DNA of 64,000 nt from an uncultured Bacteroidales bacterium (GTDB lineage: Bacteria; Bacteroidota; Bacteroidia; Bacteroidales; Paludibacteraceae), in NCBI GenBank assembly GCA_900319005.1, contig ONMV01000006.1, positions 1 through 64,000 of the forward strand, written 5' to 3'. A program made the translations under genes and the position numbers. The notes under the pieces were generated by a model. That model was not told the DNA's origin. It searched no databases and saw only the letters and a list, made by a program, of their open reading frames with translations. Position 1 is the stretch's first letter, and every line of letters begins with the position of its first letter. Positions 6,748 through 62,936 of the stretch are shown one piece after another.

Positions 6748-8078
6748 AACACCTCCGTTACATAGTATCCTTTGTCCTTTGTACCTTGTCCCTTTGTACT
6801 TGGTCTCAGGATTTTGCCCGTATGGGTGAGCGTTCGATCATGGGAACAGCGCGTTATGTAGGTATGTCGGGGGCAATGAGTGCCATCGGAGCAGATCCTT
6901 CTGCTACCTTGGATAATGTGGCTGGTCTGGGAATGTACAGACGTGCAGAGATTCTCGTTTCCTTTGATTATATGGCTGATAGAGCTTGGCAGGTCGGTGT
7001 TCCGGATACAAAGGGCAGGGCGCGTTTGTTCATGGCGCCGCAGGCGGCTTTGGTCCTCTCTTTTCCAACCAATAAAGTGTCTGGCATTCAATACCATAAC
7101 GTCCAGATCTCGTATCAGCGTATCCATGCCTACAACCGTGCGTTACGCGGCACGGCGGAGAATAGCCCCTCGCTCGGCGCACTCTTTGCTACTACTACCG
7201 CGAATTTGGGAGGGCCTTATTGTCAGGACCGACTTAATGCCTCTGAACAGATGGATCTCTTTGAGAGCGGCTATGTCAATGAGTATGCTTTCGATTGGGC
7301 AATGAATATCTCCAACCGCTGGTACGTCGGTGCGGGTCTGAGAATCAACTCTTTCTCTATGTCCTCGGAGGGCAAGTATCAGGAGTGGTTCGATCATTAT
7401 AACACGAAAGGCGACATGTTCTATAACTATAGCCAAACCCGCGTACTCTTTAATGGAGTAGGCGCATCTCTTGCTGTCGGGGCTATCTATCGTCCTGCGC
7501 AGTGGTTCCGTCTCGGTTTCGGATTGGAGACTCCTTCTGTCAGCACGTTTAGAACTTCAACTACAGGTTATTTCGAGGCGCAAGCTGATTCGGTAGCACC
7601 GGGTTCTTCCTCCACGAATTGGCCTAGGGAGTTCTCGGGATTCCATATGCCGCTCCATTTAAGCACTTCTGCGGCGTTCCAAATCACGAATTATGCGCTC
7701 TTGGCGTTCCAGTATGACTATTTCCATCAACCCGGAGAGATTGATCGTCATTCGCTTCGTACGGGTGTGGAGGTGGTGCCTTACCCGGGTGTGTACCTCA
7801 ATGCCGGATACGCCTACGAAAGTCCTTTCAGAAAGTCTTATCCCTTGAAGGAGATGGATATGTCACTTGAGCGGCAGGATACCTATTCCCTTCGTACCCA
7901 TCGTACACAGTATATATCTGGTGCCGTGGGATATAGAGGGCGTTATTTGATTGTTCAAGCAGCCTACCAATATCGCATGCAGCGAGTCAAAATATGGGCA
8001 CATGAAGCAGTCAATGCCCCTTATGACATCAATGCCGATACCCACCGTGTTGTAGTGACTATCGGCTGGCATCGTTAA
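6744..8078 (+). CDS. OmpP1/FadL-like outer-membrane protein
   Basis: 444 residues. After a signal peptide (IVSFVLCTLSLCTWSQ) the mature start GMSGAMSAIGADPSATLDNVAGLGMY is the conserved plug-hatch motif of FadL-like hydrophobic-substrate transporters, followed by alternating amphipathic beta strands and a final aromatic strand (VVVTIGWHR). Likely imports or exports hydrophobic small molecules across the outer membrane. The hydrophobic core of the signal peptide is encoded by an iterated word (6767-6805, CCTTTGTACCTTGTCCC) also seen in other signal peptides here. Confidence 0.8.
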   Translation: MKHLRYIVSFVLCTLSLCTWSQDFARMGERSIMGTARYVGMSGAMSAIGADPSATLDNVAGLGMYRRAEILVSFDYMADRAWQVGVPDTKGRARLFMAPQAALVLSFPTNKVSGIQYHNVQISYQRIHAYNRALRGTAENSPSLGALFATTTANLGGPYCQDRLNASEQMDLFESGYVNEYAFDWAMNISNRWYVGAGLRINSFSMSSEGKYQEWFDHYNTKGDMFYNYSQTRVLFNGVGASLAVGAIYRPAQWFRLGFGLETPSVSTFRTSTTGYFEAQADSVAPGSSSTNWPREFSGFHMPLHLSTSAAFQITNYALLAFQYDYFHQPGEIDRHSLRTGVEVVPYPGVYLNAGYAYESPFRKSYPLKEMDMSLERQDTYSLRTHRTQYISGAVGYRGRYLIVQAAYQYRMQRVKIWAHEAVNAPYDINADTHRVVVTIGWHR

Positions 8079-8079
8079 T

Positions 8080-8145
8080 AATAAATCGTCAATAATAATA
8101 AATCGTCAATAAATCGTAAATCGTCAATCGTCCAATCGTCAATAA
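8080..8145. repeat. CGTCAAT-word intergenic repeat
   Basis: Iterates of AATCGTCAAT, AATCGTAAAT and CGTCCAATCG follow the stop of the barrel gene and end at the structured RNA. The same words recur at 18121, 38399, 50326, 55925 and 62806. Confidence 0.8.
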
Positions 8146-9215: not shown

Positions 9216-9692
9216 ATGACAACAGATCTATCTAAATACGATGCGAACCAACTGCCTGGCGCTGATGTCCTCGGACGTCAGCGCTATGCAATTGTAGTGG
9301 CGGATTGGAATAGTGAAATCACTTATGCCATGGCACAAGGAGCCATCGATATCTTCATCAAACATGGCGTGCAGGAGGAAAATATCGACGTGATTCATGT
9401 GCCCGGGACGGTTGAACTGACTTATGGCGCAGCGCGTATCATGCGTGAGGAACACGTGGACGCAGTGGTGGTTATCGGCTGTGTTATTCAGGGCGAGACG
9501 CCGCATTTCGATTATGTGTGTCAGTCCGTGACTCAAGGGGTAGCTGTGCTCAATACGCAAGGTAAAGTGCCGGTGATCTTCTCCGTCCTCACGGTCCTCA
9601 ATAAGCAGCAAGCTCTGGACCGTTGTGGTGGCAAATTGGGCAACAAAGGTATCGAAGGCGCATATACCGCCATTAGAATGGCAAACCTCTAA
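9216..9692 (+). CDS. ribH: 6,7-dimethyl-8-ribityllumazine synthase
   Basis: 158 residues, the usual length. Condenses 5-amino-6-ribitylaminouracil with dihydroxybutanone phosphate in riboflavin synthesis. The family motifs are visible: IVVADWNSEIT at the N-terminus, VPGTVEL, IGCVIQGETPHFDYV with the active-site His, VIFSVLT and a C-terminal GNKGIEGA. Cytoplasmic and normally assembled as pentamers or icosahedra. It follows the TPR gene by one base and is followed by CGTACAT-word repeats. Confidence 0.96.
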   Translation: MTTDLSKYDANQLPGADVLGRQRYAIVVADWNSEITYAMAQGAIDIFIKHGVQEENIDVIHVPGTVELTYGAARIMREEHVDAVVVIGCVIQGETPHFDYVCQSVTQGVAVLNTQGKVPVIFSVLTVLNKQQALDRCGGKLGNKGIEGAYTAIRMANL

Positions 9693-9722
9693 TCGTACAT
9701 CGTAAATCGTACATCGTACATC
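9690..9722. repeat. CGTACAT-word intergenic repeat
   Basis: TAATCGTACATCGTAAATCG and two more CGTACAT units fill the gap between ribH and the aspartokinase gene. Confidence 0.7.
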
Positions 9723-25085: not shown

Positions 25086-25112
25086 CAGCCGTTTTTGAAA
25101 AAAGTGAATTTT

Positions 25113-25215
25113 AGGCAGGTGCTATACGACCAGCTCCCTCTGAACTCCCCCAGGACTTGACCGTAGCAAGGGTAGGAGGTTGTAGCGGTGCGATGTAGTT
25201 AGCCTGCCTTTTTTT
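25113..25215 (+). ncRNA. ffs: Signal recognition particle 4.5S RNA
   Basis: AGGCAGG (25113-25119) pairs with CCTGCCT (25203-25209), followed by a T run. Within, GGTGCTATACGACC near the 5' end and GGTGCGATGTAG near the 3' end match conserved positions of bacterial small SRP RNA, and CCCAGGACTTGACCGTAGCA matches the domain IV internal loop (CAGG on one side, AGCA on the other). It guides Ffh and FtsY in membrane protein targeting. Length about 97 nt fits the small bacterial type. The gap on its left (24932-25053) holds nothing else I recognise. Confidence 0.85.
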
Positions 25216-31772: not shown

Positions 31773-33761
31773 TTACTTAAATCGTGACAGCAAATTATAT
31801 GCTTGATAAATTCCCAGTTCACCGGCTTTGGATAGATCGGCAAGTCCTTTCTCGTTCTCGCCGGTATAGATATATGTCAGTCCGCGGTTGAAATACGCTT
31901 CTGCCAATTCGGGATCTACCGAGATAGCTTTGGTGTAGTTTTCTATTGCATCTTTCCATTCGTGTTGCGCACAGAGGGTATTTGCTTTGTTGTAATAGGC
32001 AAAGGAGAAATCCGGTTGCATCGCAATCACCTGATCATAGTCGCGCAGCATAATGTCATAGTCCATATTGGCGGTCGCCACTTTTTCCCCGTTAGCGCGT
32101 TGGTATTCTACTAACCGGTATCGCCAGTTCGCGCGGCAGAAAGTAGCGATGACAGTAAGCGGCGATTTGGCTTCAGTCAGCGAGAGCGCGCGTGTGCAAT
32201 CATCAATAGCGCTCGTATAGTCCTGTACGATTGCAAACTCCATGGCGCGCGCGAAATAGAGGTCGGCATTGGGCGCTCGGTCAATGCGGTTGGAAAGCTG
32301 CGTGATCTCAGCAAAATGAAAATCTACCATTTCTGCCGTCAACGCCAATTCCTGACTCGTGAAACGCATCGCAGCAGGCATAATACCGTTCTGGTTGATG
32401 TATTCCACCAGATGATGATAGTAATTCGTACTTCGGAGCGTCAGGTCTTTGCTGTAATAACTGAGCACAATATGGGCTTCGTTCACTACATCCTGATAGC
32501 GTTTCTGTACGGCGCCTCGAGCTGGAGAACGATATTTTTCCTCATCTTCCGATAGCTCAGTCTGTTTCTGCGCCATTGAGGAGGAGAACTCCTTGCGTCG
32601 GTCTCTTTTGGGCGGCTGTGCGTCCGCAATCTGAATATCCGTATTGGGTTGAGCGGCTTGGATATCCTCTTTGCGTTGCTCTAAGTCATAGGCCTGTTTG
32701 CGGTATTTATATGCCTCCTTGGTATGTCCCTGATGTGTCTCTGCTTGGGCAGCCATATAATAAGCCGGCAGGAAATACGGGTAGCGAGCAATAAGCGTAT
32801 TCATATCTTCTACTACCTCTTTCCATTGCTTCAGTTGCATCTCCACTAATCCTCTTTGGTAACGCATTTCTGTCCGTTCGGGAGCCAACTCAATCGCCGT
32901 CTGCAGATCTTCCAACGCATTATTGTAATCGCCCACTTCCTGACGCAAAACACCTCGGTTATAATAAACATCGGCATCTTGGGGAGCAATCTTTACCGCT
33001 TGGTCATAATCCGAAAGCGCGCCGCGATAGTTATGACGGTGGTAATGGATGATGCCCCTGTTCGTGAAATCGCCCGCCCATTTGGAGCCAAGATTGATAG
33101 CTTGCGTCAGTTGCACATAGGCTTTGTCCTCTTCGTTGAGCATGAGGTTCGTCACACCTAAAGCCGACCATACAGCGGGGTTCGTTTTGTCATATTCTGC
33201 CGCTTGCTCCAATGCGCTGAGCGCCGCCAGAGTATCTCGTTTGGCTAAGCAGATTCGTCCTTTTTCGCTCCAAAAAGAAGCGGAATGAGGCTCGCGATGC
33301 AAGAGAAGTTCGATATCTTCGAGTGCCTCATCATAGCGTTTGAGTTGCGCACGCGTGTCTGCGCGCAATAACAAATAGGTGTGATTCTCCGGAGAGAAAA
33401 ACAATGCTTGCGTATAGTCCGACTCTGCTTTTTCCCATTCTTCCAGACGATAGTATATAAATCCGCGAGTGTAGTAATATCCGGGCGAGAAAGGATTATG
33501 GTCTATCGCCGTATTGCAATCCTTGAGTGCTCCCTGAAAATCCTCCAACTGAATCTTGGCGATAGAGCGGTAAAAATAGGGTTCGGTCAAATACGGCTTG
33601 AGACGAATAACCTGATTGAAATATTGAATAGACAGCACGTAATCCTCATAGTACAAAGCATTCTTACCAATCGCCGTAATACGGTCGGTATTCAACTGCG
33701 CAAAAGTACCAAGTGACAAAGTACCAAGTACAAGGGTTAATATGTATCGTTTAATTTTCAA
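31773..33761 (-). CDS. Exported TPR protein
   Basis: 662 residues. After a signal peptide (RYILTLVLGTLSLGTFAQ) come at least ten tetratricopeptide repeats, for example FYRSIAKIQLEDFQGALKD, YYTRGFIYYRLEEWEKAESD, VYYNRGVLRQEVGDYNNALED and AYFNRGLTYIYTGENEKGLAD. A low-complexity linker (QKQTELSEDEEKYRSPARG) separates two repeat blocks. It is probably a periplasmic scaffold. The TTG start and the signal peptide share a repeat of more than 40 bases with the TraB-like gene downstream: both read M-(K/E)-IKRYIL-LVLGTLSL. Confidence 0.82.
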   Translation of the reverse strand: MKIKRYILTLVLGTLSLGTFAQLNTDRITAIGKNALYYEDYVLSIQYFNQVIRLKPYLTEPYFYRSIAKIQLEDFQGALKDCNTAIDHNPFSPGYYYTRGFIYYRLEEWEKAESDYTQALFFSPENHTYLLLRADTRAQLKRYDEALEDIELLLHREPHSASFWSEKGRICLAKRDTLAALSALEQAAEYDKTNPAVWSALGVTNLMLNEEDKAYVQLTQAINLGSKWAGDFTNRGIIHYHRHNYRGALSDYDQAVKIAPQDADVYYNRGVLRQEVGDYNNALEDLQTAIELAPERTEMRYQRGLVEMQLKQWKEVVEDMNTLIARYPYFLPAYYMAAQAETHQGHTKEAYKYRKQAYDLEQRKEDIQAAQPNTDIQIADAQPPKRDRRKEFSSSMAQKQTELSEDEEKYRSPARGAVQKRYQDVVNEAHIVLSYYSKDLTLRSTNYYHHLVEYINQNGIMPAAMRFTSQELALTAEMVDFHFAEITQLSNRIDRAPNADLYFARAMEFAIVQDYTSAIDDCTRALSLTEAKSPLTVIATFCRANWRYRLVEYQRANGEKVATANMDYDIMLRDYDQVIAMQPDFSFAYYNKANTLCAQHEWKDAIENYTKAISVDPELAEAYFNRGLTYIYTGENEKGLADLSKAGELGIYQAYNLLSRFK

Positions 33762-33793
33762 TTATCAACTATCAACTATCAATTATCAATTAC
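33757..33793. repeat. ATTATCAACT-word repeat carrying the TPR gene start
   Basis: TTTTCAATTATCAACTATCA and two more units separate the PBP1A stop from the TPR gene; the TTG start (33761-33759) lies in the first unit. Confidence 0.75.
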
Positions 33794-36060: not shown

Positions 36061-37151
36061 ATCATCAGATCTTCAATTATTCGATTTAAAACATGTATGC
36101 CTTTTTGTGTGGCAACCAACCGCCCGTCGTCCGTCTCCCGTAATAGCGGATTCTTACCTGTCATTCTCGTTACCATCTCGTTCGCATTACGTACGTCCAC
36201 GTCCGATAGGAGGATCCCCTTATTCGTTCTCAGCCCCAGCATGATCCGCTCGTTGTACAGGTCTTTGTCGTTTAGTGTCTCGCTCTCGCGAACCAAAGTC
36301 CCGTTCTCTATCCCCGTTATATACGCCTCCAAATCATCGGGATTCCAACTCCGAACACGTCCTATATAACTGTGCGCTCCGGCTCCTATGCCTATATACG
36401 GCGTGCCGTCCCAATAACTGCTGTTATGCTTCGCTTCATAGCCCGGAAGCGCAAAATTGCTCACCTCGTAATGCACAAAACCCGCTTCTTTGAGCCGCTC
36501 GCAGAGGGTGTCGTACATCGCGTTCTCTGTCTCTTCGTCTATCGGTATGATATCTCCTTTGTCTCGCATCCGGGTCAACATCGTCCCTTCTTCGTACATC
36601 AGTCCGTAAGACGAAATATGTTGTACGCCGAGCCCCAATGCCGTCTCTATATCCGCTTTCCATTGCGCCATCGTCTGACCCGGCAGCGCGTACATCAAAT
36701 CAATGGAGATGTTCTCAAACCCCGCTTCTTGCACCATATGTACTGCGTCTATCGCTTGCTGTGCGTTGTGCCGCCGACCGATGAACCGTAATAACTCATC
36801 CTGAAACGATTGAATACCCATCGACAGTCGGTTAACTCCCAGCGCTCTTAATCCCCGCAAGTATTCCTCTGTCGCATCGCCGGGATTGATCTCCATCGTA
36901 TATTCTTCTATGCAAGCCCTGGGCAAATCTTGGTTTAGTGCTGTCACCGATTCCAAAGTGAGCGTGCTTGGAGTGCCTCCTCCGATATAAATTGTCCGTA
37001 TCGGTTCGCCTGCTTCGTCTTTTCGCGCTTTAATCTCCTTGCATAATGCCGCCACATATTCCTCTTGCCTCCCCAACAGCGTCGTGGAGTAAAAATCGCA
37101 ATACAGACATCTCTTCTTGCAAAACGGTATATGTACGTATATCCCAGCCAT
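36057..37151 (-). CDS. hemW: Heme chaperone HemW-like radical SAM protein
   Basis: 364 residues. HIPFCKKRCLYCDFYS holds the CxxxCxxC cluster site with the extra Cys-free HemW pattern, and TIYIGGGTPSTL, LGVNRLSMGIQSFQ and GQTMAQWKADI follow. The C-terminus has the HemW_C winged domain (LNDKDLYNERIMLGLRTNKGI). Related to HemN but members of this clade insert heme rather than oxidise coproporphyrinogen; assignment is by motif pattern. Confidence 0.88.
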   Translation of the reverse strand: MAGIYVHIPFCKKRCLYCDFYSTTLLGRQEEYVAALCKEIKARKDEAGEPIRTIYIGGGTPSTLTLESVTALNQDLPRACIEEYTMEINPGDATEEYLRGLRALGVNRLSMGIQSFQDELLRFIGRRHNAQQAIDAVHMVQEAGFENISIDLMYALPGQTMAQWKADIETALGLGVQHISSYGLMYEEGTMLTRMRDKGDIIPIDEETENAMYDTLCERLKEAGFVHYEVSNFALPGYEAKHNSSYWDGTPYIGIGAGAHSYIGRVRSWNPDDLEAYITGIENGTLVRESETLNDKDLYNERIMLGLRTNKGILLSDVDVRNANEMVTRMTGKNPLLRETDDGRLVATQKGIHVLNRIIEDLMI

Positions 37152-37176
37152 CCACTAATCCACTAACCCACTAATC
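37149..37176. repeat. CCACTAAT-word intergenic repeat
   Basis: CCACTAATCCACTAACCCAC and one more unit lie between rarA and hemW; the last codons of rarA run into it. Confidence 0.6.
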
Positions 37177-38391
37177 CTTCTTCCAAAAAGTCGTTCCCAC
37201 CAGTTCATCCGGCAAATACTGTTGTTCCACCCAGTGTCCCGGAAAATCATGCGGATATAAGTATCCGTCGTTATAACCGAGATCTTTCATTAGACTCGTC
37301 GGCGCGTTGCGAAGATGTAATGGAACAGGCAGATTGCCCGTTTCGCGCACTTTTGCCTGCGCTTCGTCTATTGCCAAATACGCCGAGTTGTCTTTCTTAC
37401 AGGTCGCTAAATAGATCGTCGTTTCCGCTAAAGGAATGCGCCCTTCCGGCCAACCGATCTTGTTCACTACGTCGAAACACGTGTTCGCTAACAACATCGC
37501 ATTCGGGTTCGCTAAACCGATATCTTCGCTCGCCAAAATAACCAACCGACGCGCGATGAACTTCGGATCTTCGCCGCCTTCTATCATGCGTGCGAGCCAA
37601 TAAATAGCAGCCTGCGGGTCACTTCCGCGAACCGATTTGATGAACGCCGAAATGATATCGTAGTGCATCTCTCCGTCTTTGTCGTAAGCCACGGGGTTTT
37701 GCTGCAACTGCTTGGTGACGGTCTCGTTTGTAATCTCTTTCACGCCGCTGTTGGCTACCAACTCAATGATGTTCAGCAATTTCCGTGCATCGCCTCCGCT
37801 GAAACGCAATAACGCCTCGTTCTCTTTGACCTCTATTCCCAACGAACGGATGTATTCATCTTTGGTCAGCACGCGGTTGAGCAGTTCCAGCAGATCCTCT
37901 TTGGCTAACGATTTGAGCACATACACTTGGCATCGGCTCAAGAGCGGCGTTATGACCTCAAAACTCGGGTTCTCCGTCGTCGCGCCGACCAGCGTGATCG
38001 TTCCTTCTTCCACGGCTCCCAAGAGACTGTCTTGTTGGCTCTTGCTGAAACGGTGGATCTCATCAATAAACAGAATCGGGCTGCGACCGTCCGTCGGGGC
38101 AAACAATCCGCTGTTCATCGAGGCGTTCCGTTTCGCTTTGTCAATTACGTCCCGAACTTCCTTCACGCCGCTCGTAACAGCGCTCAGCGTGTAGAACGGA
38201 CGCTGTAACTGATGTGCAATAATCCTTGCTAAGGTCGTCTTGCCCACGCCCGGAGGACCCCACAGAATGAACGAAGCGATATTCCCGCTCTCAATCATCT
38301 GCCTCAGGATCGCTCCTTCACCCACCAGATGTTTCTGTCCTATGTATTCGTCCAGCGTCTTCGGACGCATTCGTTCTGCTAATGGCAACAT
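37171..38391 (-). CDS. rarA: Replication-associated recombination protein RarA (MgsA)
   Basis: 406 residues, the normal length. AAA+ ATPase acting at stalled replication forks. Walker A is ILWGPPGVGKTTLA, Walker B LFIDEIHRF, then the sensor VGATTENPSFEV and arginine-finger region LLSRCQVYVL. The C-terminal tetramerisation domain (HYDIISAFIKSVRGSDPQAAIYWLARM) is complete. recN lies upstream on the same strand across a 141-base repeat array. Confidence 0.95.
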   Translation of the reverse strand: MLPLAERMRPKTLDEYIGQKHLVGEGAILRQMIESGNIASFILWGPPGVGKTTLARIIAHQLQRPFYTLSAVTSGVKEVRDVIDKAKRNASMNSGLFAPTDGRSPILFIDEIHRFSKSQQDSLLGAVEEGTITLVGATTENPSFEVITPLLSRCQVYVLKSLAKEDLLELLNRVLTKDEYIRSLGIEVKENEALLRFSGGDARKLLNIIELVANSGVKEITNETVTKQLQQNPVAYDKDGEMHYDIISAFIKSVRGSDPQAAIYWLARMIEGGEDPKFIARRLVILASEDIGLANPNAMLLANTCFDVVNKIGWPEGRIPLAETTIYLATCKKDNSAYLAIDEAQAKVRETGNLPVPLHLRNAPTSLMKDLGYNDGYLYPHDFPGHWVEQQYLPDELVGTTFWKKD

Positions 38392-38398
38392 AAAGTGT

Positions 38399-38541
38399 AT
38401 TTACGATTTACAAATTTACAATTGACGATTTATTGACGATTTACCGCTTTGCGGGATTTACGATTTACGCGGCGGACAATCGTCAATTATTTTCAATCGT
38501 CCATCAATCGTACCTCGTCAATCGTCCAATCGTCAATTATT
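38399..38541. repeat. Long CGTCAAT-word repeat array, copy A
   Basis: About 140 bases of ATTTACGATTTATTGACGAT, a short CGCTTTGCGG core, ATTTACGATTTACGCGG and GACAATCGTCAATTATTTTC, ending in CAATCGTACCTCGTCAATCG. Copies with the same order of words occur at 50326-50463 and 62806-62936. All three lie just upstream of a minus-strand start codon (here rarA) and run up to the stop of the preceding gene (here recN). Confidence 0.85.
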
Positions 38542-40143
38542 ATTTAACAATTCCTGTGCTGTTTGAACCGCCGCCTCGCTTACGTCTTTTCCGCTCAGCA
38601 TAGAGGCAATCTCCGTGATCCGCTCTGTATCCGTCAAACGGCTGATATGGGTCTCCGTCCGTTTGTCCGTATCGGCTTTATAGACCTTGTAATGGCTCTC
38701 GCCCTGTGCGGCTATCTGCGGCAAATGGGTGATCGCGATGATCTGGCGGCTCTTTGACATCTCTTTCATGATCTTCGCCATCTGCGTCGCTATGTTGCCG
38801 CTCACACCGGTGTCTATCTCGTCGAAGATGATGGTCGGCAACCCTTTGGTCGAAGCAATCAACGCCTTGATACAGAGCATCAATCGGCTTATCTCACCGC
38901 CGGAAGCTACTTCGCTCACTGCCCGCAGGCTCTGATTGAGGTTCGCCGCAAAGAGGATCTGCACTTCGTCACAACCGTTCGGAGTAAAATCCGGAGCGGG
39001 TAGAATAGGGACCTCTATTTTCGCGTGCGCCACACCCAAACTCTGCAAACCGCTTATTAACCGCTCGCATATCTGCGGAACAACCGCTTTGCGGCTCTTG
39101 GTTAACGCCTCTGCAGCTTTCGTTAACGCCTTTTTCTCCGTCTCGACTGTTTTCTTCGCTTGCTCGATATCGAAATCGAAACTGTCCAAACGGTTCACTT
39201 GTTCCGCTAACTCGTCCCGCATAGCGATCAGTTCGTCAACCGTCTCTGCGCTGAACTTATGTTTCAGTTCCTCCAACGCACCTATTCGTTCCTCCACCCA
39301 TTCCAAGCGCTGCGGATCCATCTCTATGTGGTTCAGTTTGCGTTCCGCCTCTTCGGCGATGTCTTGTATCTCTATCCGCGCACTCTCGATCCGTTCTTGC
39401 AGATCGCTTGCCGCTTCGTCCAGCCGACATGCCCGAAGAGCCTCTAACGCGCTCCCTTGTTCGCCGCTCAACGCCTCTAAAGCCGTTTCCAACGCCGTAC
39501 GGATCTCCTCTGCGTGGCTCAAACGGTATTGCTCGTCCTCCAATTCTTCCAACTCGCCGGCTTCCAAATGCGCCTCGTCCAAGAGCTTGTAGCGGTATTG
39601 GATATAATCGGCATCCTGCTGACTTTTCTTTGCCAAACTCTGTAACTTATGCAACTCCTCGCACGCTGCCAAATACCGCTCGTACTGACTACCGTACGCC
39701 TCTGATAGCCCTCCGTTCTGCGCGATAGCATCTACTACCTCCAACTGAAAATCCGCATTCTCAATCAGCAGATTTGCGTGCTGGCTATGTATATCTATGA
39801 GTTTGTTCGCCAAACTCTTCAACTCCTGCAGCGTCACCAAACTGTCATCCACAAAAGACCGGCTCTTCCCATTCGCATACAGTTCGCGACGGATGATCAT
39901 CTCTCCCTCCTTTGAGGGGAGGGTTGGGGTGGGGTTATTAAACACCGCTTCAATTATACATTTCTCTTCTCCGTCCGTAATAGCCTTGCTATCTGCGCGC
40001 GCACCCATCACCAAAGCCAGCGCACCGAGGATAATACTCTTTCCTGCTCCTGTCTCACCGGTTAGCACCGAAAAACCATCTGTAAAATCAATATCCAGAT
40101 GGCTTATCAGCGCATAGTTCTGTATGTGTAAATGCCTTAACAT
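38533..40143 (-). CDS. recN: DNA repair protein RecN
   Basis: 536 residues from the ATG at 40143 (MLRHLHIQNYALI), the family start; an upstream frame extension is not conserved. SMC-like ATPase for double-strand break repair: Walker A GETGAGKSIILGAL, long coiled coil in the middle, and ABC signature VASGGEISRLMLCIKAL with Walker B PTIIFDEIDTGVSG. Near residue 70 the segment NPTPTLPSKEGE (39903-39938) interrupts the conserved arm; the same peptide type is encoded in the DUF1015 gene and the word also occurs in an intergenic gap. Confidence 0.95.
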   Translation of the reverse strand: MLRHLHIQNYALISHLDIDFTDGFSVLTGETGAGKSIILGALALVMGARADSKAITDGEEKCIIEAVFNNPTPTLPSKEGEMIIRRELYANGKSRSFVDDSLVTLQELKSLANKLIDIHSQHANLLIENADFQLEVVDAIAQNGGLSEAYGSQYERYLAACEELHKLQSLAKKSQQDADYIQYRYKLLDEAHLEAGELEELEDEQYRLSHAEEIRTALETALEALSGEQGSALEALRACRLDEAASDLQERIESARIEIQDIAEEAERKLNHIEMDPQRLEWVEERIGALEELKHKFSAETVDELIAMRDELAEQVNRLDSFDFDIEQAKKTVETEKKALTKAAEALTKSRKAVVPQICERLISGLQSLGVAHAKIEVPILPAPDFTPNGCDEVQILFAANLNQSLRAVSEVASGGEISRLMLCIKALIASTKGLPTIIFDEIDTGVSGNIATQMAKIMKEMSKSRQIIAITHLPQIAAQGESHYKVYKADTDKRTETHISRLTDTERITEIASMLSGKDVSEAAVQTAQELLNNN

Positions 40144-40203
40144 GTATCTACTCTTTTTACATCGGGATTGTATTAGAAAATACAATACATTCAAAAAATC
40201 GTA

Positions 40204-40235
40204 CAAAGGTACAACAAATTTTGCATATATGCAAG
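40204..40235 (-). promoter_or_regulatory. Promoter of recN
   Basis: Minus-strand TTGCATATATG (from 40234), 20-base spacer and TACCTTTG (40211-40204). Confidence 0.82.
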
Positions 40236-44960: not shown

Positions 44961-45872
44961 TTATTGATTGATTCGATCAAAAGTGTTTTGTCGGGTGGGG
45001 TCGATGTCCATTAGGATCTCATACACCTTTTTCTTCTCCTTGTCGGTTCCTTTGCTGAAGATGTCCACCATCTCATCCGCCTTGGCATCCAAAAATGTAT
45101 TGATCACATATGTAGCGGGACGAGCACGATAAGATTCTCTGAGAACCGGCATCCCCTCCGCGATACGGGCACGCGCATTTGCCACATTATTGCTCATCTC
45201 GTCCAAGCCCAAACGATGGTACTCATAGTAATAATTGCGGTATTTCTTGAATGCTTCGTCAATCAGGTTATTCGTCAGAGCATAGCGGTTTCTGTTGCTA
45301 TCAAAAGCTAACCATCCACGCTGCTCTTGGTCGTTCATCGAAGCCGATTGACATGCATTCACAATATCTTCGCATTGCTGGAAGAAAGGTGTACCGCCCA
45401 AGCGTTGAAAACTATCTTGGTCATGACCGATGATGAGGTAGCAGTAGTACGCCAACATCGCCGTCAGGTTCGTCGTGAACGTGTTTTGCTGATACTCAAT
45501 GCGGTCGTACTCTTGGTAAGTAAAATTGAAGTTTTTATCCACAAAATTGATTAGCGGCGTGGTGTATGTAGAGCCATACACGGGACGGCGGCTCTGTAAC
45601 GTCATGTCGCAAACGAACATATCTTCAGTCTTCGATTTGACCACAATAAGCATGCTGCACTCGATTTTCTCATGCTCCGCATAACTCATATTAGTCCATC
45701 GGTTATGGTTCATGTATTCCTCGATGGCGGTCTTGAGCGTTGAGAAAATCTGCTTGTTAGTTCCCTCAATCATGTCCGAATTGACGGTCACGGAGCAGTT
45801 GAGTTCCTGCGCCTTTGTCTGGCTTACAATCAATGTCAGCAGACAAAATAAGATGAAAGTTATTCTTTTCAC
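44961..45872 (-). CDS. porD: Type IX secretion system protein PorD (DUF4835)
   Basis: 303 residues from a GTG at 45872 (MKRITFILFCLLTLIVSQTKAQ), giving a clean signal peptide. The mature start ELNCSVTVNSDMIEGTNKQIF, then LQSRRPVYGSTYTTPLINF and YYCYLIIGHDQDSFQRLGGTPFF are the DUF4835/PorD signature. PorD is a periplasmic protein needed for type IX secretion in Bacteroidetes. The start codon lies in an ATAATTGG/ATTATCCA repeat that could also initiate a TTG six codons upstream. Confidence 0.85.
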   Translation of the reverse strand: MKRITFILFCLLTLIVSQTKAQELNCSVTVNSDMIEGTNKQIFSTLKTAIEEYMNHNRWTNMSYAEHEKIECSMLIVVKSKTEDMFVCDMTLQSRRPVYGSTYTTPLINFVDKNFNFTYQEYDRIEYQQNTFTTNLTAMLAYYCYLIIGHDQDSFQRLGGTPFFQQCEDIVNACQSASMNDQEQRGWLAFDSNRNRYALTNNLIDEAFKKYRNYYYEYHRLGLDEMSNNVANARARIAEGMPVLRESYRARPATYVINTFLDAKADEMVDIFSKGTDKEKKKVYEILMDIDPTRQNTFDRINQ

Positions 45873-45873
45873 A

Positions 45874-45942
45874 ATTATCCAATTATCCAATTGTCAATTA
45901 TCAATTATCAATTATCAATTATCAATTATCAATTATAATTCA
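45874..45942. repeat. ATTATCAATT-word tandem repeat
   Basis: Two ATTATCCA units and then six ATTATCAATT-type units in a row, the longest tandem run of this word in the window. It separates porD from the DUF4831 gene and has no spacers. Confidence 0.85.
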
Positions 45943-46998: not shown

Positions 46999-47034
46999 AT
47001 ATTAATTATTCATTATTCATTATTCATTATTCCA
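46999..47034. repeat. ATTATTCATT-word repeat
   Basis: ATTAATTATTCATTATTCAT and one more unit between DUF4831 and aroE; the last codons of aroE (WNNE) are encoded in it. Confidence 0.65.
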
Positions 47035-47736: not shown

Positions 47737-48596
47737 AATTTTCCTTTTTTTATCGTTGCTTTATGGGTCTTGGAGGTGAATGTTTTGCCTCCTTCTCCTT
47801 TTTGCAACGCATCGTAAATTTTATCTATTTCTGCGAAATTATATTCGCGAAGTTGTTCGTAAAGTCGCGCGATACCTTCTTCGCGCGACTTATTACCCTC
47901 TATCATATCTACGTACCCTTGCATATATTCCGCCGTTTGAGCCATGTGCTCGATCTCTGTTTTGGAGTAGTTCTTGAGCTGCTCGCGGATCGCATTCCGG
48001 GTAATCGAGGTGTCCGAATTAGTGCTGTCTGTCACCCAATTGAGGTGCCTTTTGTCTTTCAAATAATGTTCAATATATCCTCTCGTTGTACAGAGCAGCG
48101 GACGCACAATAGGCACGCTCTCCGGCACGATGGGATTAGCGCTCACGGGGCGCATTCCGGCAAGTCCGCGGATACCTGTTCCGCGTTTGAGATTGAGCAA
48201 AATGGTCTCCGCCTGATCGTTCTGATGATGGGCTACACAAACCGCTTGACAGCCATGTTTGCGTGCCATTTCATCAAACCATCTATACCGTAACTCCCGT
48301 GCTGCAACCTCAATACTCACTTCATGCGTACGCGTGTATTCGATGGTGTCAAAATCCGTGACCTCCAACTCCACGTTCATTTGCTTGCACAAATCCCGCA
48401 CGAAAGCTTCATCGCGGTTGCTCTCTTCGCCCCGCAGGTGAAAATTGCAATGTGCCGCAACGCACGTATATCCGGCTCGCAGGAGCACATCGAGCAGGCT
48501 CACGCTATCCGCTCCGCCGCTCAATGCCACCAACACAGGTTTGTCTTTCTGTAACAATCCCCGCTGCCGAATATATGTGGTTACTCTGCGTAACAA
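47715..48596 (-). CDS. tilS: tRNA(Ile)-lysidine synthase, short form
   Basis: 293 residues against 420-450 usual. Converts C34 of tRNA-Ile2 to lysidine so that AUA is read. The PP-loop ALSGGADSVSLLDVLL, CHFHLRGEES-like HCNFHLRGEESNRDEAF and AHHQNDQAETILLNL are present, along with the RPLL motif (VRPLLCTTRGYI). The C-terminal TilS domains are mostly missing, leaving a short tail. Start is TTG at the edge of an ATTGAGAATTG repeat. Confidence 0.88.
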   Translation of the reverse strand: MLRRVTTYIRQRGLLQKDKPVLVALSGGADSVSLLDVLLRAGYTCVAAHCNFHLRGEESNRDEAFVRDLCKQMNVELEVTDFDTIEYTRTHEVSIEVAARELRYRWFDEMARKHGCQAVCVAHHQNDQAETILLNLKRGTGIRGLAGMRPVSANPIVPESVPIVRPLLCTTRGYIEHYLKDKRHLNWVTDSTNSDTSITRNAIREQLKNYSKTEIEHMAQTAEYMQGYVDMIEGNKSREEGIARLYEQLREYNFAEIDKIYDALQKGEGGKTFTSKTHKATIKKGKLCVTLVS

Positions 48597-48597
48597 T

Positions 48598-48640
48598 TCT
48601 CAACTCTCAATTTTCAATTCTCAATTTTCAATTCTCAATT
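48598..48640. repeat. TCTCAATTTTCAATT-word repeat
   Basis: Five units between ettA and tilS. The final residues of EttA (LIEN and stop) are encoded by its last unit. Confidence 0.75.
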
Positions 48641-50307: not shown

Positions 50308-50325
50308 AATTATATATTTACGATT

Positions 50326-50463
50326 TACATATTTACGATTTTACGATTTATTGACGATTTACCGCTTCGCAGTTTATTTACGATTTTACGCTGCTGACAA
50401 TCGTCAATTATAATCAATCGTCAATCAATCATACCTCGTCAATCGTCAAATCGTCAATTAATT
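50326..50463. repeat. Long CGTCAAT-word repeat array, copy B
   Basis: Same word order as the array at 38399: TTACGATTTATTGACGATTT, a CGCTTCGCAG core, GACAATCGTCAATTATAATC and TACCTCGTCAATCGTCAAAT. It lies upstream of ettA and ends at the stop of tex, so even the position relative to minus-strand genes is conserved. Confidence 0.85.
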
Positions 50464-52544: not shown

Positions 52545-52998
52545 ACGGGTTCTTTTCGTCTGCTTGGTGTTCCTCGGAACTAATCAATTTCCATTCGGTC
52601 TCTTTGATCTCAGGGAAGAACGTATCGGCATCGTCCCAACTATGATGAATATGCGTGATATACAATTTATCCGCTATCGGCATCATCTGCCGGTAAACCA
52701 TTCCGCCGCCGATAACAAAGGCTTCTTCTTCGCCTTGCACTTTGGCGCATAACTCATCCAATGAATAAACGGCTTCGGCTCCTTCAAAAGTCTTGCCTTG
52801 CACATCGGTCAGCACGATGTTCCGCCTATTTGGCAGCGGATGTTTGGGTAGCGAATAGAATGTCCGCTCGCCCATGAGTACGGTTTTCCCGCTTGTGATC
52901 TCCTTGAAATGTTTCAAGTCCGCCGGAAGATGACACAGCAAATCGCCTTTCTTCCCGATGGCATAATTCTCTGCTACTGCTACTATAATGGAAATCAT
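52510..52998 (-). CDS. folA: Dihydrofolate reductase
   Basis: 162 residues. Reduces dihydrofolate with NADPH. ISIIVAVAENYAIGKKGDLLCHLPADLKHFK is the conserved N-terminal substrate region, VLMGERTFYSLP the NADPH loop and FVIGGGMVYRQMMP the second dinucleotide motif. Directly follows thyA across an AATTTTTAATT repeat, the usual pairing of thymidylate and folate genes. Confidence 0.95.
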   Translation of the reverse strand: MISIIVAVAENYAIGKKGDLLCHLPADLKHFKEITSGKTVLMGERTFYSLPKHPLPNRRNIVLTDVQGKTFEGAEAVYSLDELCAKVQGEEEAFVIGGGMVYRQMMPIADKLYITHIHHSWDDADTFFPEIKETEWKLISSEEHQADEKNPYDFTFCTYNRR

Positions 52999-53037
52999 AA
53001 TTCGTAATTCTTAATTCTTAATTTTTAATTTTTAATT
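52999..53037. repeat. TAATTCTTAATTTTTAATT-word repeat
   Basis: ATAATTCGTAATTCTTAATT and TTTAATT units fill the thyA-folA gap. Confidence 0.7.
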
Positions 53038-53837: not shown

Positions 53838-55910
53838 TCAATAAAGTTTATACGTTGTTTTCAACACCTTAAACTCTGTCCGTCGGTTGATCTGGTTGCA
53901 TATCTCCTGCTTGTCTGCCGGCAGACTTAGGATAAACGTCTCATCCAAGGCTTGCTCTACCGGTATCCACGAATAACGTTTATTAAGCGCTTTATCGGCA
54001 ATCACAGGCTTCGTTTTACCATAACCCACCGGTGTCAGACGTTCTTTCTCAATACCTTTTTTGATCAGGTAATCGCAGCAACTCTGCGCACGTTTTTGAC
54101 TCAAATCTAGGTTGAACTGATCATTACCCACCAAATCCGTGTGTGCGCTCAACTCAATCGTGATATTGGGGTTGTCATTCAGCAACTTAACTAACTGCTC
54201 CAACTCCCCTTCGCTGGCTTTGGTCACTTCCCATTTACCGAACTCATAGAAGATATTCTCCATCTTTACCGGCCTGCTTATCGGGTTAAGCATAAAGTTC
54301 ATCGTGTATGTCTTGCTGTCTTTCAGATCAAAGGTGTTCCATTGTTCTTTGGCATTCAGGTGTCCGCGTGCGGTCGCTAACATCACATACTTGACATCAC
54401 GTTTGATCTTGATCTTGTAACTGCCGTCTCGACGGGCGTTCACGCGGTTGTTCGTACCATCAGAGCCCACAATACGCAGTTTGGCGTCGGAGAGCGGATT
54501 GCCTTCCTCGTCCGTTACCACTCCTTCCGCAAAAAACTCCATCTCCGGCAGTCGGAAAGCATAAATCTTGTCATAACCTTTCTTTTCTCCGCGGTTGGAA
54601 GAGAAATAACCGTCCTGACTGTTTCCGGCGAATGTGATTCCGAAATCGTCGCCGGTTCCGTTGAACGGTGCTCCCATGTTATATAGCACCCACACAATGG
54701 AGTCGGTGAATGTGCTGTCTATTGTCGCTTTGAAAATATCCAAACCGCCGTAACCCGGATGACCGTTCGATGCGAAATAGAGTGTCCCATCGGCATGCAC
54801 GTACGGGTACATCTCATTGGCGGACGTGTTGATACCGCTGCCTAAGTTCTGCACGTTGACCCATTCGTTATTGTCCTTTTCTGCCATCCAAATATCTTTG
54901 CCCCCGATGCCGTTGGGCGCGTCACTCACGAAATAAAGCGTGTCGCCCGAAGGACTCAACGCCGGATGACCAACCGTGATCGAACTATCCGCAAACAACT
55001 TCACCTCCTGAGGTTCGCTCCATTCGCCGCTCGCACGTTCGCTGTAATAGATCTTCGCACCCAGATCCTTCCCGTTGATTGGTTTGGAATAGGTGAAGTA
55101 CATTCCTCTTCCGTCGCGGGTGAACGAACAAACACCTATCTCAGCGTTTCCGGCTTGTTTGCCGCCCGTCGAGTCGTTCTCCTGCTCTTTTTCCGGCGAG
55201 TCGTACAGACCCTCCGCCAACTCTATCTCTACCCATTCGCCGGCGGCATCCTTACGAGTCTGGTATAACTGAAAGAGTTGCTGACCCGTTACGTTACTCG
55301 GGCGCTTTAGGGTCTTCTTGCCTCCTTTCGGCTTCTCCTGACGGTTGGAAGTGAACATCAACGCATCGGATTTGTCGCCGATAAACATTGGCGCGAAGTT
55401 ACTTGTATGCCTCTGATTGAACTGCTTCGCTTCGCTAATCTTGTAGCGCGAACCCTCTTTCTTCCACTCGTCAATCTTTCCGCAAGCGTATTTACCGGCT
55501 TTCGCTACGTAGTTATCCGGATGTTTTTCCAGATATAACTCATAACTCTTGGCAGCATCTTTGTACTTGCCTTGGTATTGGAGCACCTGACCTGCATGCA
55601 GAAAGATTGTGGAATCCTGCAAATGATATTTGCATCGCAGCGCACTCTGGTAAGCGTTAGCTGCACGGGGATTATTAAGAATTCGGTAACACTCGCCTTG
55701 ACGATATGCTACATAACCTTTCAACTGACGATCTTTCTTGGCGCTCAGTCGTCCGTAACATTGTTTGTAGATATCTGCTGCGGTGTAATACTCACCGATG
55801 GCGAATTTCTTATCTGCCCGTTTGATACGTTGCTGCACGCTACATCCGGACAACACCACAGCCATCATCCCCACCGCACAAAGGAATAATATGTTTCTTC
55901 TATTTTTCAA
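53838..55910 (-). CDS. porE: Type IX secretion lipoprotein PorE
   Basis: 690 residues from a TTG at 55910 (MKNRRNILFLCAVGMMAVVLSGC), which yields a clean lipobox LSGC. Domain order fits PorE: TPR-like N-terminus (FAIGEYYTAADIYKQCYGRL), a WD40-like propeller (HPALSPSGDTLYFVSD, YPYVHADGTLYFASN), a carboxypeptidase-like domain (GVVTDEEGNPLSDAKLRIVG) and a C-terminal OmpA peptidoglycan-binding domain (SAHTDLVGNDQFNLDLSQKRAQ). PorE anchors the T9SS ring to the cell wall. The in-frame upstream codons come from a repeat, so a longer start is unlikely. Confidence 0.88.
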   Translation of the reverse strand: MKNRRNILFLCAVGMMAVVLSGCSVQQRIKRADKKFAIGEYYTAADIYKQCYGRLSAKKDRQLKGYVAYRQGECYRILNNPRAANAYQSALRCKYHLQDSTIFLHAGQVLQYQGKYKDAAKSYELYLEKHPDNYVAKAGKYACGKIDEWKKEGSRYKISEAKQFNQRHTSNFAPMFIGDKSDALMFTSNRQEKPKGGKKTLKRPSNVTGQQLFQLYQTRKDAAGEWVEIELAEGLYDSPEKEQENDSTGGKQAGNAEIGVCSFTRDGRGMYFTYSKPINGKDLGAKIYYSERASGEWSEPQEVKLFADSSITVGHPALSPSGDTLYFVSDAPNGIGGKDIWMAEKDNNEWVNVQNLGSGINTSANEMYPYVHADGTLYFASNGHPGYGGLDIFKATIDSTFTDSIVWVLYNMGAPFNGTGDDFGITFAGNSQDGYFSSNRGEKKGYDKIYAFRLPEMEFFAEGVVTDEEGNPLSDAKLRIVGSDGTNNRVNARRDGSYKIKIKRDVKYVMLATARGHLNAKEQWNTFDLKDSKTYTMNFMLNPISRPVKMENIFYEFGKWEVTKASEGELEQLVKLLNDNPNITIELSAHTDLVGNDQFNLDLSQKRAQSCCDYLIKKGIEKERLTPVGYGKTKPVIADKALNKRYSWIPVEQALDETFILSLPADKQEICNQINRRTEFKVLKTTYKLY

Positions 55911-55911
55911 T

Positions 55912-55972
55912 CGTTCAATATTTTCATTCGTCAATAAATCGTACCTCGTCAATCGTCCAATCGTCAATTTAG
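55912..55972. repeat. CGTCAATCGT-word repeat upstream of porE
   Basis: AATCGTTCAATATTTTCATT then TCGTCAATCGTCCAATCG. The TTG start of porE lies at its left edge and the last codons of the DUF1015 gene (HELN) at its right edge. Confidence 0.75.
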
Positions 55973-57307: not shown

Positions 57308-57309
57308 AA

Positions 57310-57398
57310 AATCATTTACGATTTTGTCATTTATATTTATTTGTTCAAATTAGCCAAATGGTACATAAATGGTACATGGTAAATGAACAAATGGTACA
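57310..57398. repeat. AAATGGTACAT-word repeat downstream of bactofilin
   Basis: AAATGGTACATAAATGGTAC and two more units close the bactofilin gene and separate it from the DUF1015 gene. Confidence 0.65.
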
Positions 57399-59933: not shown

Positions 59934-61805
59934 ATGAATACAAATCAATCAAAATATCTTCAGAACTGGGGACTTGTTCTCCTTTCATTTTTCATCTTTC
60001 ACCTTTCACCTTCCTATGCTCAACGTATTCCGCAGGCGTTGGAGTACACGGAGATCTATGATTTCTTGGAGGAACTGACTACCGATGGAATCATCCATTC
60101 CAATGCTGCCATCAAACCCTATACACGCGATGCTATCGCACGTATGTTAGCAGAGGCACAGACCAAGGACTCGCTCCTCAATCGTCGGCAACGCGATGAT
60201 CTGCAGTTCTATATGCAGGATTACGCGTTGGAGCTCGATACGCTGCCCACGTATTATTCCTATGGGCATCGTCATGTCACGCAATGGAAAACAAACGTCT
60301 CGAACCTCAGTCTGGCGGACCCGAGTCTGCATATCCTGACTAAGAACAAAATCTTCAAAATGCGTGTCCGTCCGATCCTTGGTATGGACCTGACGTACAA
60401 TACCAAAGGGCTGCTCCAACATCGATGGTATGGTATTGATATCCAGATGGATATAGCCAAACATCTGTCTATCTGGGGTTCTATCCGTGATAATAGTTGG
60501 GGCGGTTTGGGAGTGAACGGCTCGAAGATCCATTTCGGTTGGACGCGCGTCGGAGACCGGATGGTGGGAATACCTGCCCTCAATAATATACCGGGTGTGC
60601 AATACAAGGAAGCAAACTACGGTGGTGATTTCTCGGATTCACGTGGCGGTATCTCTTTATATACATGGTGGGGATCTGTCGGTATTCAGCGGGAGCGAAT
60701 CCAATGGGGGGATGCACAACATTGCTCTAACATCCTTTCTGCGCATAATCCGGCTGTCCCGATGTTCACAATCCAACTCACACCCTGCAAATGGTTTCAG
60801 TTCGATTATTTCCATGCATGGCTGCCTTCGAACGTGATTGATTCCACCTATTACTATGTGGAGCGGCAGGAAGAAGATGTCTTTCAGCGTGAGTATCGTC
60901 CCCAGAATAAATTCATGGCGGCGAATATGTTCACCTTCATGCCAATTAAGTATATCCAGTTCTCTTTCGGTAACTCGATTATTTATGCCGAACGGAGTGT
61001 GCAAGCGCAGTTCTTTATCCCCTTCGCATTCTTCAAATCACTCGACCACCTTTTTACAAAAGGTGTGAACTCCGAGAACCAGAACTCGCAAGTCTTTGCT
61101 TCGATTTCCATCCGACCGACCGATCATCTGCGCTTGTATGGCTCATTCTTCTTGGATGAGTTCAAGTTTGCACGACTCAAACCATCCAATCCGGAGCATA
61201 ATCCGATCTCCTATCTGGTGGGGTTCAATTGGAGCGGTTGGCCGGTAAAAGGACTCAGTCTTAGAGGTGAGTTCATGCGCGCGTACATAGCGTGCTACAC
61301 GCATTCTATTAAGGTGCTTGAATATACCTCCAATAGTTTCAACATGGGACATTACATGGGCGATAACGCACAGAGTATCTTCCTCCAACTCGCCTATCGT
61401 CCCACACGCTCATTGCGTCTGACACTTGATTTCACGCAGGATACCAAATATCGTGCCTTCGATTATGTGCGTAAGAACATCGCAGGTACGCGTATTCCGG
61501 ATCCTATTATTGCACAGAAACCCTTCTCGGAGAAGATTTGGCGCAATAACCAACTCCGGTTCCGTGCTATCTATGAAGTGTTCAATAACTGCTACGCGCA
61601 TGTCGATTTTACGTACAGCAATATACGTGCTTATACGCCTTCTTCGCCCCGTATTGAAGGAGAAGACCGCGGATGGTATGCGGATGGTTCGTCTATGGAA
61701 TTGGCAGGTGATGAACTGAAAAAGTACTACTTAGACAAATACACCCCTGCATATCTGCAAGGGAGTAAGTTCACATTCACTTGTGGGCTGAGTTTCGGCT
61801 TCTAA
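59934..61805 (+). CDS. Outer-membrane barrel, capsule-assembly Wzi-like
   Basis: 623 residues. The signal peptide LVLLSFFIFHLSPSYAQ is encoded by repeat words (TTTCATTTTTCATCTTTC, 59979-60012). The mature part begins RIPQALEYTEIYDFLEELTTDGIIHSNAA and then alternates beta strands (MRVRPILGMDLTYNTKG, HLSIWGSIRDNSWGG, FTCGLSFGF at the end), the pattern of Wzi-like outer-membrane proteins that hold surface polysaccharide. Family assignment is tentative because no hallmark motif is visible. Confidence 0.7.
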   Translation: MNTNQSKYLQNWGLVLLSFFIFHLSPSYAQRIPQALEYTEIYDFLEELTTDGIIHSNAAIKPYTRDAIARMLAEAQTKDSLLNRRQRDDLQFYMQDYALELDTLPTYYSYGHRHVTQWKTNVSNLSLADPSLHILTKNKIFKMRVRPILGMDLTYNTKGLLQHRWYGIDIQMDIAKHLSIWGSIRDNSWGGLGVNGSKIHFGWTRVGDRMVGIPALNNIPGVQYKEANYGGDFSDSRGGISLYTWWGSVGIQRERIQWGDAQHCSNILSAHNPAVPMFTIQLTPCKWFQFDYFHAWLPSNVIDSTYYYVERQEEDVFQREYRPQNKFMAANMFTFMPIKYIQFSFGNSIIYAERSVQAQFFIPFAFFKSLDHLFTKGVNSENQNSQVFASISIRPTDHLRLYGSFFLDEFKFARLKPSNPEHNPISYLVGFNWSGWPVKGLSLRGEFMRAYIACYTHSIKVLEYTSNSFNMGHYMGDNAQSIFLQLAYRPTRSLRLTLDFTQDTKYRAFDYVRKNIAGTRIPDPIIAQKPFSEKIWRNNQLRFRAIYEVFNNCYAHVDFTYSNIRAYTPSSPRIEGEDRGWYADGSSMELAGDELKKYYLDKYTPAYLQGSKFTFTCGLSFGF

Positions 61806-62797: not shown

Positions 62798-62805
62798 ATT
62801 ATTTA

Positions 62806-62936
62806 CGATTTAACGATTTAACGATTTACGATTTATTGACGAGTTTTATTAATTTACGATTTACGCGGTGGACAATCGTCGATTATTTTCAATCGTCCAT
62901 CAATCGTACCTCGTCAATCGTCCAATCGTCAATCAC
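62806..62936. repeat. Long CGTCAAT-word repeat array, copy C
   Basis: ACGATTTAACGATTTACGAT, ATTTACGATTTACGCGGTGG, ACAATCGTCGATTATTTTCA and CAATCGTACCTCGTCAATCG in the same order as copies A (38399) and B (50326). It lies upstream of rsgA and ends at the stop of frr. Confidence 0.85.

Follow-up and report, generated by a model that had tools for sequence, protein, structure and literature searches.

What occupies positions 38399-38541 of the DNA stretch analysed here (the window, 64,000 nt; contig C17 of a 2.18-Mb draft genome), between two genes that we take, from their sequences, to be recN-like and RarA/MgsA-like? A preliminary description treated the locus as one of many intergenic gaps filled with short, imperfectly iterated words that fit no known family, and proposed a genome-wide process that makes or spreads such words. 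We compared the window with 40 relatives, including 24 in the same genus; judged on the RarA/MgsA-like protein, the nearest named one is a metagenome-assembled genome from uncultured Bacteroidales (92% identical; L039).

A dispersed element with inverted arms

A search of the genome with 38399-38541 as the query returned 49 matches, including a few places that were matched on both strands. Eighteen matches, the query among them, span 125 nt or more of its 143 nt and are termed near-full copies; the others of these are 75–89% identical. Three further copies cover at least 100 nt. Alignment of the copies revealed sharp ends and two inverted arms. One, the G-arm (ATTGACGATTGGACGATTGACGAGGTACGATTGAT...), hardly varies among the 19 copies aligned, which come from three genomes; the other, the T-arm (...AAATCGTCAATAAATCGTAAATCGTAAAT), is looser. 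A hairpin of the CCGCTTCGCGG type may also be present. The statement in the preliminary description that terminal inverted repeats are lacking is therefore wrong at this locus. Its statement that target duplications are lacking agrees with the data at the element, where a duplication of at least 4 nt was found in 1 of 16 copies, against 8.75% of mispaired flanks; the element thus has the terminal inverted repeats and dispersed copies of a miniature inverted-repeat transposable element (MITE) and lacks its target duplication. The window copy folds with z = −4.15 as RNA and z = −2.60 as DNA, and RNAalifold put compensatory pairs in the element at 0 of 15.

The copies are oriented with their neighbours. 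Seventeen near-full copies are flanked on both sides by genes of a single strand, and 16 of them have the G-arm first along transcription, in agreement with both neighbours (the exception is L193); L198, between opposed genes, and L194, with one called neighbour, match the nearer and the only gene, respectively. Ten partial copies were checked (L199-L208), and five of the six that could be scored agree, with L200 disagreeing. Relatives have no element at the site of 38399-38541; their two genes overlap by 13 nt or are separated by a short gap. The element is confined to part of the genus. At E 0.001, with no more than 21 candidates scored in any one genome, the query found some match in 25 of 41 genomes, but many of these are short stretches of words.

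IVP genes between the same arms

In three relatives the two arms enclose a gene. In genome G021 (L254), a T-arm and three G-arms flank one 124-codon gene, between frames that look to us like lptB and xth. The gene belongs to TIGR02436 ('four helix bundle protein') and Pfam PF05635 (23S_rRNA_IVP; hereafter IVP) and is related to PDB 2RLD. Here and at two further loci (L293 in G043 and L294 in G046), the G-arm is upstream of the IVP gene and the T-arm downstream, in the order seen in the element that has no open reading frame (ORF). In the longer forms found, the sole gene between these arms is an IVP gene and not a transposase gene. The three full forms have inside them the S23/IVP frame that some rRNA intervening sequences (IVS) contain; the window copy has no such frame and sits between two protein-coding frames, not in an rRNA gene. 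An IVP-bearing form was not found in the 64-kb window, and only one IVP gene of the window's genome exceeds the cut-off (C21, L222). It shares its site with the IVP gene of G046 and has inverted arms made of GTACGAT words.

A site with an element in one species can be no more than a short gap in the next (582 versus 17 nt from gene to gene between matches, and 408 versus 6 nt). One orthologous site contains an IVP gene with arms of its own in G053 (L244) and the ORF-less element (the L188 copy) in the window's genome; at other sites the gap of the unoccupied species contains words of its own. A second arm style, in which GACCGCTNCGCT units are linked by ACAGA words, was seen at the IVP loci L234, L257, L258 and L227 of the genus, and also in IVP-less gaps (G002).

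Table 1 Positions of the element copies, their neighbours and the word arrays in the window
Feature	Position	Strand	Remarks
TTTGTCC/TTTGTAC words in the 5′ region of the gene at 6744	6768-6805	+	Probably signal-peptide codons (by eye)
Partial element copy or word array (query 80-139)	8084-8143	.	As G-arm: against its two + strand neighbours
ATCGTAC array, fills a 31-nt gap	9692-9722	+	
Bacteroidales small SRP RNA (RF04183)	25106-25213	+	The window's only Rfam match at the gathering threshold
TTGATAA/TTGATAG array	33753-33792	-	
ATTAGTGG array	37150-37177	-	A single GATTAGTGG at the stop/start overlap in relatives L039 and L140
RarA/MgsA-like AAA ATPase gene	37171-38391	-	Downstream neighbour of the element copy
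Full element copy	38399-38541	-	G-arm first along transcription; overlaps the end of the upstream gene
recN-like gene	38533-40206	-	Upstream neighbour of the element copy, overlapped by it
TTGATAA array (sense)	45872-45940	-	G002, G006 and G015 have a 4-nt stop/start overlap here
ATGAATA array	47000-47032	-	
TTGAGAA/TTGAAAA array	48594-48640	-	
Second element copy	50316-50460	-	88% identical
AATTAAG/AATTAAA array	52998-53037	-	
Partial element copy, G-arm part (query 79-140)	55908-55969	-	
AAATGGTACAT-type gap	57308-57398	-	G004 ortholog (L283): IVP between ATGAATA- and ATGATTA-type arms
CTTTCAC words	59977-60012	+	In a probable signal-peptide coding region
Third element copy	62801-62933	-	86% identical

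Private inverted arms around many IVP genes

We scored the 260-nt upstream flank of each IVP gene of the genus against its downstream flank. Of the 81 rows over the cut-off, 70 were fetched and L252 (broken frame) was dropped, leaving 69 genes, among which the choice of frame is uncertain at L279, L290 and L292 and doubtful at L253, and L243 and L291 are represented by a piece of the frame, with a stop inside the match. An inverted flank match with a score of at least 28 was present at 37 of the 69 genes and a direct one at 11; the proportion reaching this score was 2.26% both among 398 control genes and among 1016 mispaired flanks. The words are private to each gene, as pairing a flank with that of another IVP gene of the same genome gave such a score in only 6 of 164 cases. 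A protein gene was called on each side at 63 of the 69 genes; of these 63, both neighbours share the strand of the IVP gene at 60, and the upstream neighbour does so at all 63. The corresponding numbers for 188 controls are 116 and 145. The ends are complementary in sequence, as in an IVS; energy gave a weaker signal, with RNA duplexes between the flanks falling under the mispaired 5% line at 14 of 68 IVP genes and 11 of 190 controls. At sites common to two species the upstream arms are mostly closer to each other than to their own partners, which gives no support for concerted change of the arms.

IVP genes are widespread in Bacteroidota: PF05635 matched in 193 of 247 genomes and exceeded the family cut-off in 183 (up to 16 matches each). 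At 30 of these loci (the best-scoring ones, one per genome; at L311 a stop inside the match left a piece of the frame for use), inverted arms were found at 14, direct ones at 3 and reverse-only ones at none, with 2.87% for mispaired flanks; the upstream gene was on the other strand in 2 of 30, as called by a program trained on another genus. IVP matches also occur in 25 plasmid records, 14 of them from Nostoc or Planktothrix, and we sampled 12 (10 cyanobacterial, 1 Chloroflexota and 1 Bernardetia). Inverted scores of at least 38 were found at 8 of these 12 (null 95%, 36.8), although 38 was also reached by 1 of 12 scores in the reverse-only control and by 4 of 12 in the direct one, so that the controls are not clean. 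The arms are perfect or near-perfect heptamer arrays at the plasmid IVP genes of Nostoc ATCC 53789, Dolichospermum and Nostoc HK-01. Recurrences of 6-mers at a distance of 7 nt numbered 28.3 per kb in the IVP flanks of the genus and 104.5 per kb in those of plasmids, against 8.7 per kb in control flanks from word-rich genomes; the flanks of the Bacteroidota sample had 6.8 per kb at 7 nt, 8.5 at 8 nt and 18.7 at 14 nt, with 2.5 at 7 nt in outer sequence. In several bacterial phyla, IVP genes often lie between mirror-image arrays of 7-nt words. The plasmid genes are not locked to the sense of their surroundings: both annotated neighbours are on the IVP strand at 7 of 12 and the upstream neighbour is opposite at 3 of 12, at one of which, in Anabaena (between cas2 and cas1), both neighbours are opposite.

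Several plasmid IVP genes stand among defence-type genes (L365, Planktothrix p1; L368, Gloeocapsa; L374, Chlorohelix; L370, Anabaena pANACY.01; L372, Pseudanabaena pPg_04). One lies between DISARM drmD and an MmeI-like gene, two lie between DUF1156 and Swt1-HEPN genes, one precedes cas1, and one is placed between cas2 and cas1 but on the other strand. In Nostoc ATCC 53789 pNsp_b (L376) the IVP gene is upstream of a XisH-family gene; an earlier study describes a similar distribution of TAACTGA repeats and XisH/XisI in cyanobacteria (PMC4679880).

Repeated words beyond the element

TRF listed many arrays with periods of 7, 8 or 11 nt in the gaps of the window (Table 1). We counted nearest recurrences of 6-mers in 464 kb (the window plus 400 kb), taking gaps of 20–120 nt and dinucleotide shuffles as the null. 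The 92 short codirectional gaps had 172 recurrences at a distance of 7 nt against 5.3 in shuffled sequence, 85 against 3.8 at 14 nt, 39 against 4.5 at 8 nt and 13 against 4.3 at 11 nt; distances of 5, 6, 9, 10, 12 and 13 nt were under the shuffled mean. Genome-wide, threefold CAATTNT (at most one mismatch) matched 203 times and the reversed pattern 0 times. The word enrichment that the preliminary description had offered as a check is thus clear, and the iteration it reported is real. That iteration does not extend to 'most' gaps, since among gaps of 5–400 nt TRF arrays of period 6–12 were present in 63 of 174 between codirectional genes, in 1 of 19 between divergent genes and in 4 of 16 between convergent genes. 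The units run head to tail without spacers, as had been reported, and so differ from the regular repeats and unique spacers of CRISPR arrays; in having tandem 7-nt intergenic units above chance they qualify as heptamer repeats of the STRR/TAACTGA type. Cyanobacterial STRR sequences are intergenic tandem heptamer repeats.

The words change from species to species. The same gene pair in another species has other words, or a stop/start overlap with no words, and where arrays were present on both sides of an orthologous comparison, 3 of 39 gaps (7.7%) shared words at 11/12, against 5.6% of unrelated gaps; inheritance of words at orthologous gaps was rejected on this count. Only 6.5% of 369 orthologous gap pairs were of equal length, some of them overlong because the small custom Markov caller used for the gene calls trims starts in places. 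Array pairs within a genome shared words about twice as often as pairs between genomes (11.7% versus 5.6%). The habit is patchy, with more than 1.2 distance-7 recurrences per kb in 10 of 80 loci around rarA, and a period of 11 is favoured over 7 in the congeneric G009 (L153) and G049 (L354-L355). The alignment of orthologous gaps foreseen in the preliminary description hence bore out the species-specific mix of words in each gap and gave little sign of words common to orthologous gaps. Its main interpretation, a genome-wide making or spreading of words, is upheld by the species-specific words, the within-genome sharing and the dispersed element; what has to be given up is the absence of inverted repeats and the lack of any known family. 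An assembly artefact is unlikely, because the same kind of arrays occurs in genomes of separate origin, cultured ones included.

The excess at 7 nt is present in convergent gaps (20 against 0.1, and 43 against 2.1) and divergent gaps (74 against 8.7) as well. It also appears when 518 genes are examined over their initial 90 nt (136 against 12.6; inner stretches, 55 against 23.4), where some starts extended into upstream sequence: among 14 genes from this test, about seven looked by eye like signal peptides, three looked mixed and four looked like upstream sequence. Probable signal-peptide regions in the window (Table 1) and in other genes are made of the 7-nt words TTTGTCC, CTTTCAC and ACACCAT, which encode largely hydrophobic residues whichever of several frames is read. 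The array at 37150-37177 looks like an in-place tandem duplication of the stop/start junction, a reading that rests on the two relatives with a single unit there. Taken together, the words in signal-peptide codons, the junction duplication and the gap words indicate that a 7-nt-biased word-making process acts widely, and the words at gene 5′ ends and in convergent gaps require this process to be wider than the inverted-arm element. Among arrays in general, inverted word pairs at 13/14 or better number 12 of 277 (controls, 3 and 1; direct pairs, 12), a small excess. Elsewhere in the window's genome, near-perfect inverted repeats of 20-odd bp lie at C34:90936-91037 and at C27:136703-136727 and its flanks; their arms are themselves 7/8-nt tandem units whose order is shifted between arms.

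Plain heptamer slippage could account for much of this. A quirk of replication or repair would duplicate units of 7–8 (or 11) nt, which would survive at stop/start junctions, where the frame is irrelevant, and in signal peptides, where every frame is acceptable; IVP genes would merely be located in gaps of this kind. The excess in convergent and divergent gaps and at gene starts, the junction GATTAGTGG apparently duplicated in place and the rarity of inherited words all accord with it, as does the appearance by eye of 10/11-nt units in the arms of one IVP gene (L240) of G009, a species with 11-nt words. So does the number of IVP genes, which was rejected as the cause of word density: across 29 congeneric genomes, with the IVP numbers tallied by hand, the correlation was not significant (Spearman's rho 0.22, p 0.26), and G003 (75% complete), with no IVP hit, is still word-rich (1.87 distance-7 recurrences per kb). 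Because IVP number fails to predict word density, many gap words may be plain heptamer slippage, which is a serious rival for most of them. As an account of the whole it is a reasonable second choice, as it leaves unexplained the inverted private words around IVP genes (37 of 69 against 2.3%; 37 inverted against 11 direct), the 140-bp element in 18 near-full copies and the orientation bias of that element.

Could the words instead act in translation, as all-frame stops and A-rich unstructured leaders for reinitiation or coupling, akin to the role proposed for TAACTGA? Strand bias and position speak for this: twofold TTGANAA in codirectional gaps is sense in 43 cases and antisense in 7, 42 of the 107 units contain TGA when read in sense, against 10 in antisense and 21.7 after shuffling, and many arrays adjoin start codons. 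Stop codons of any kind, however, occur in 82 of 107 sense units, barely above the shuffled 77.1 ± 3.5 (antisense, 38 against 50.8), and a stop-codon function of the words was rejected on this result. With arrays in convergent gaps too, and words that are not conserved at orthologous junctions, we regard a translational signal as unlikely.

A probable intervening-sequence-like element

REP elements (and BIMEs) are hairpins with a GTAG-type motif and a RAYT partner. It seems improbable that the element is a MITE derived from a DNA transposon, or that it is of REP type and mobilised in trans by, for example, a Y1/RAYT transposase: it is dispersed and short, with inverted arms and sharp ends, and the genome has two Y1_Tnp matches just above the curated cut-off (28.6 and 25.8 bits versus 23), but IVP, not a transposase, is the gene seen between the same arms, the element has no target duplication and an operon-sense orientation has no reason under a transposon.

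We consider it somewhat probable (roughly 0.58) that 38399-38541 is an ORF-less, MITE-like relic of an intervening-sequence-like element that lies between protein genes, whose full form is arm–IVP–arm, and that other gap words are of like make. The features that point this way, apparent from comparison of the genomes, are the inverted arms, the private words, the orientation bias, the IVP gene between the same arms and the occupied and unoccupied sites; the plasmid IVP genes, not being sense-locked, lower our confidence. The full element would consist of an upstream arm, an IVP/S23 four-helix-bundle gene of about 125 codons and a downstream arm, the two arms being inverted copies of each other built from tandem 7–8-nt words that each element has to itself. 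Both forms, full and ORF-less, lie between codirectional genes in operon sense in this genus. They would be co-transcribed with the operon, and the arms would pair in the mRNA to form a long stem-loop. RNase III may then excise the element, as happens with rRNA intervening sequences, which would make an intercistronic insertion almost silent. Since tandem words can pair in several registers, the arms could grow, shrink and drift and yet still pair. The remaining gap words would stem from species-specific tandem duplication of 7 nt (11 nt in some species) at gene junctions, and some of the remaining arrays may be relics of such elements.

A far-reaching extension, to which we give less credence than to slippage and which we offer tentatively, is that IVP genes mark RNA-level selfish elements that span phyla: intergenic stem-loops with private heptamer arms, cut from mRNA by RNase III, whose solo or ORF-less arms would be a main source of heptamer repeats in cyanobacteria and Bacteroidota, and whose Avd-like IVP would copy or remake the arms. 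The origin of cyanobacterial and Bacteroidetes heptamer repeats is not agreed, and IVP genes are reported to have no known function (PMC4990558). The inverted private words around IVP genes connect the two and bring both within reach of tests in strains of Nostoc, Flavobacterium or Bacteroides that can be cultured; a search of the open-access literature yielded no paper that connects heptamer arms with IVP genes.

Comparison with known systems

The verdict that the repeats fit no known family needs revision, as heptamer repeats have been described (PMC4679880) and the element resembles rRNA intervening sequences (PMC4990558). Among other repeats, the GGGAATC/GGGGAYT repeats of Xanthomonas and Nostoc are over-represented intergenic heptamers whose length varies among close relatives, as here (PMC4692102, which also mentions a heptamer excess in a 2007 survey); those repeats are G-rich and were studied for quadruplex formation, whereas the present words are mostly A/T-rich and varied. 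The BrickBuilt MITE of Porphyromonas gingivalis, with 19 forms in one genome (PMC4596501), is likewise an intergenic Bacteroidales repeat with tandem units and small inverted ends, but has a 23-nt unit with leader and tail subunits in place of inverted arrays of 7–8-nt words. PF05635 is reported to resemble Avd, the accessory protein of diversity-generating retroelements (DGRs) (PMC10053308).

TAACTGA heptamer repeats are known from Beggiatoaceae, cyanobacteria and some Bacteroidetes, and a translational role has been proposed for them (PMC4679880). Like the present words, they are intergenic tandem heptamers, often near start codons, strain-specific and subject to indels in 7-nt steps. A single dominant word per genome holds for the Beggiatoaceae case and not for all heptamer repeats; the present genome has many words, and private ones at each IVP gene, and differs in the inverted arms around that gene. 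The terms S23, helix bundle and intervening are absent from the main text of PMC4679880.

Intervening sequences of rRNA, as outlined in PMC4990558, have complementary ends, sometimes contain an S23p frame and are cut from the transcript by RNase III. The present elements differ from those of 23S rRNA in lying between protein genes and not in rRNA, in having arms of tandem private 7–8-nt words and in their dispersed ORF-less copies; what they have in common with them is an S23/IVP frame within complementary borders, a patchy distribution between strains and, for the elements of this genus, placement in the sense direction.
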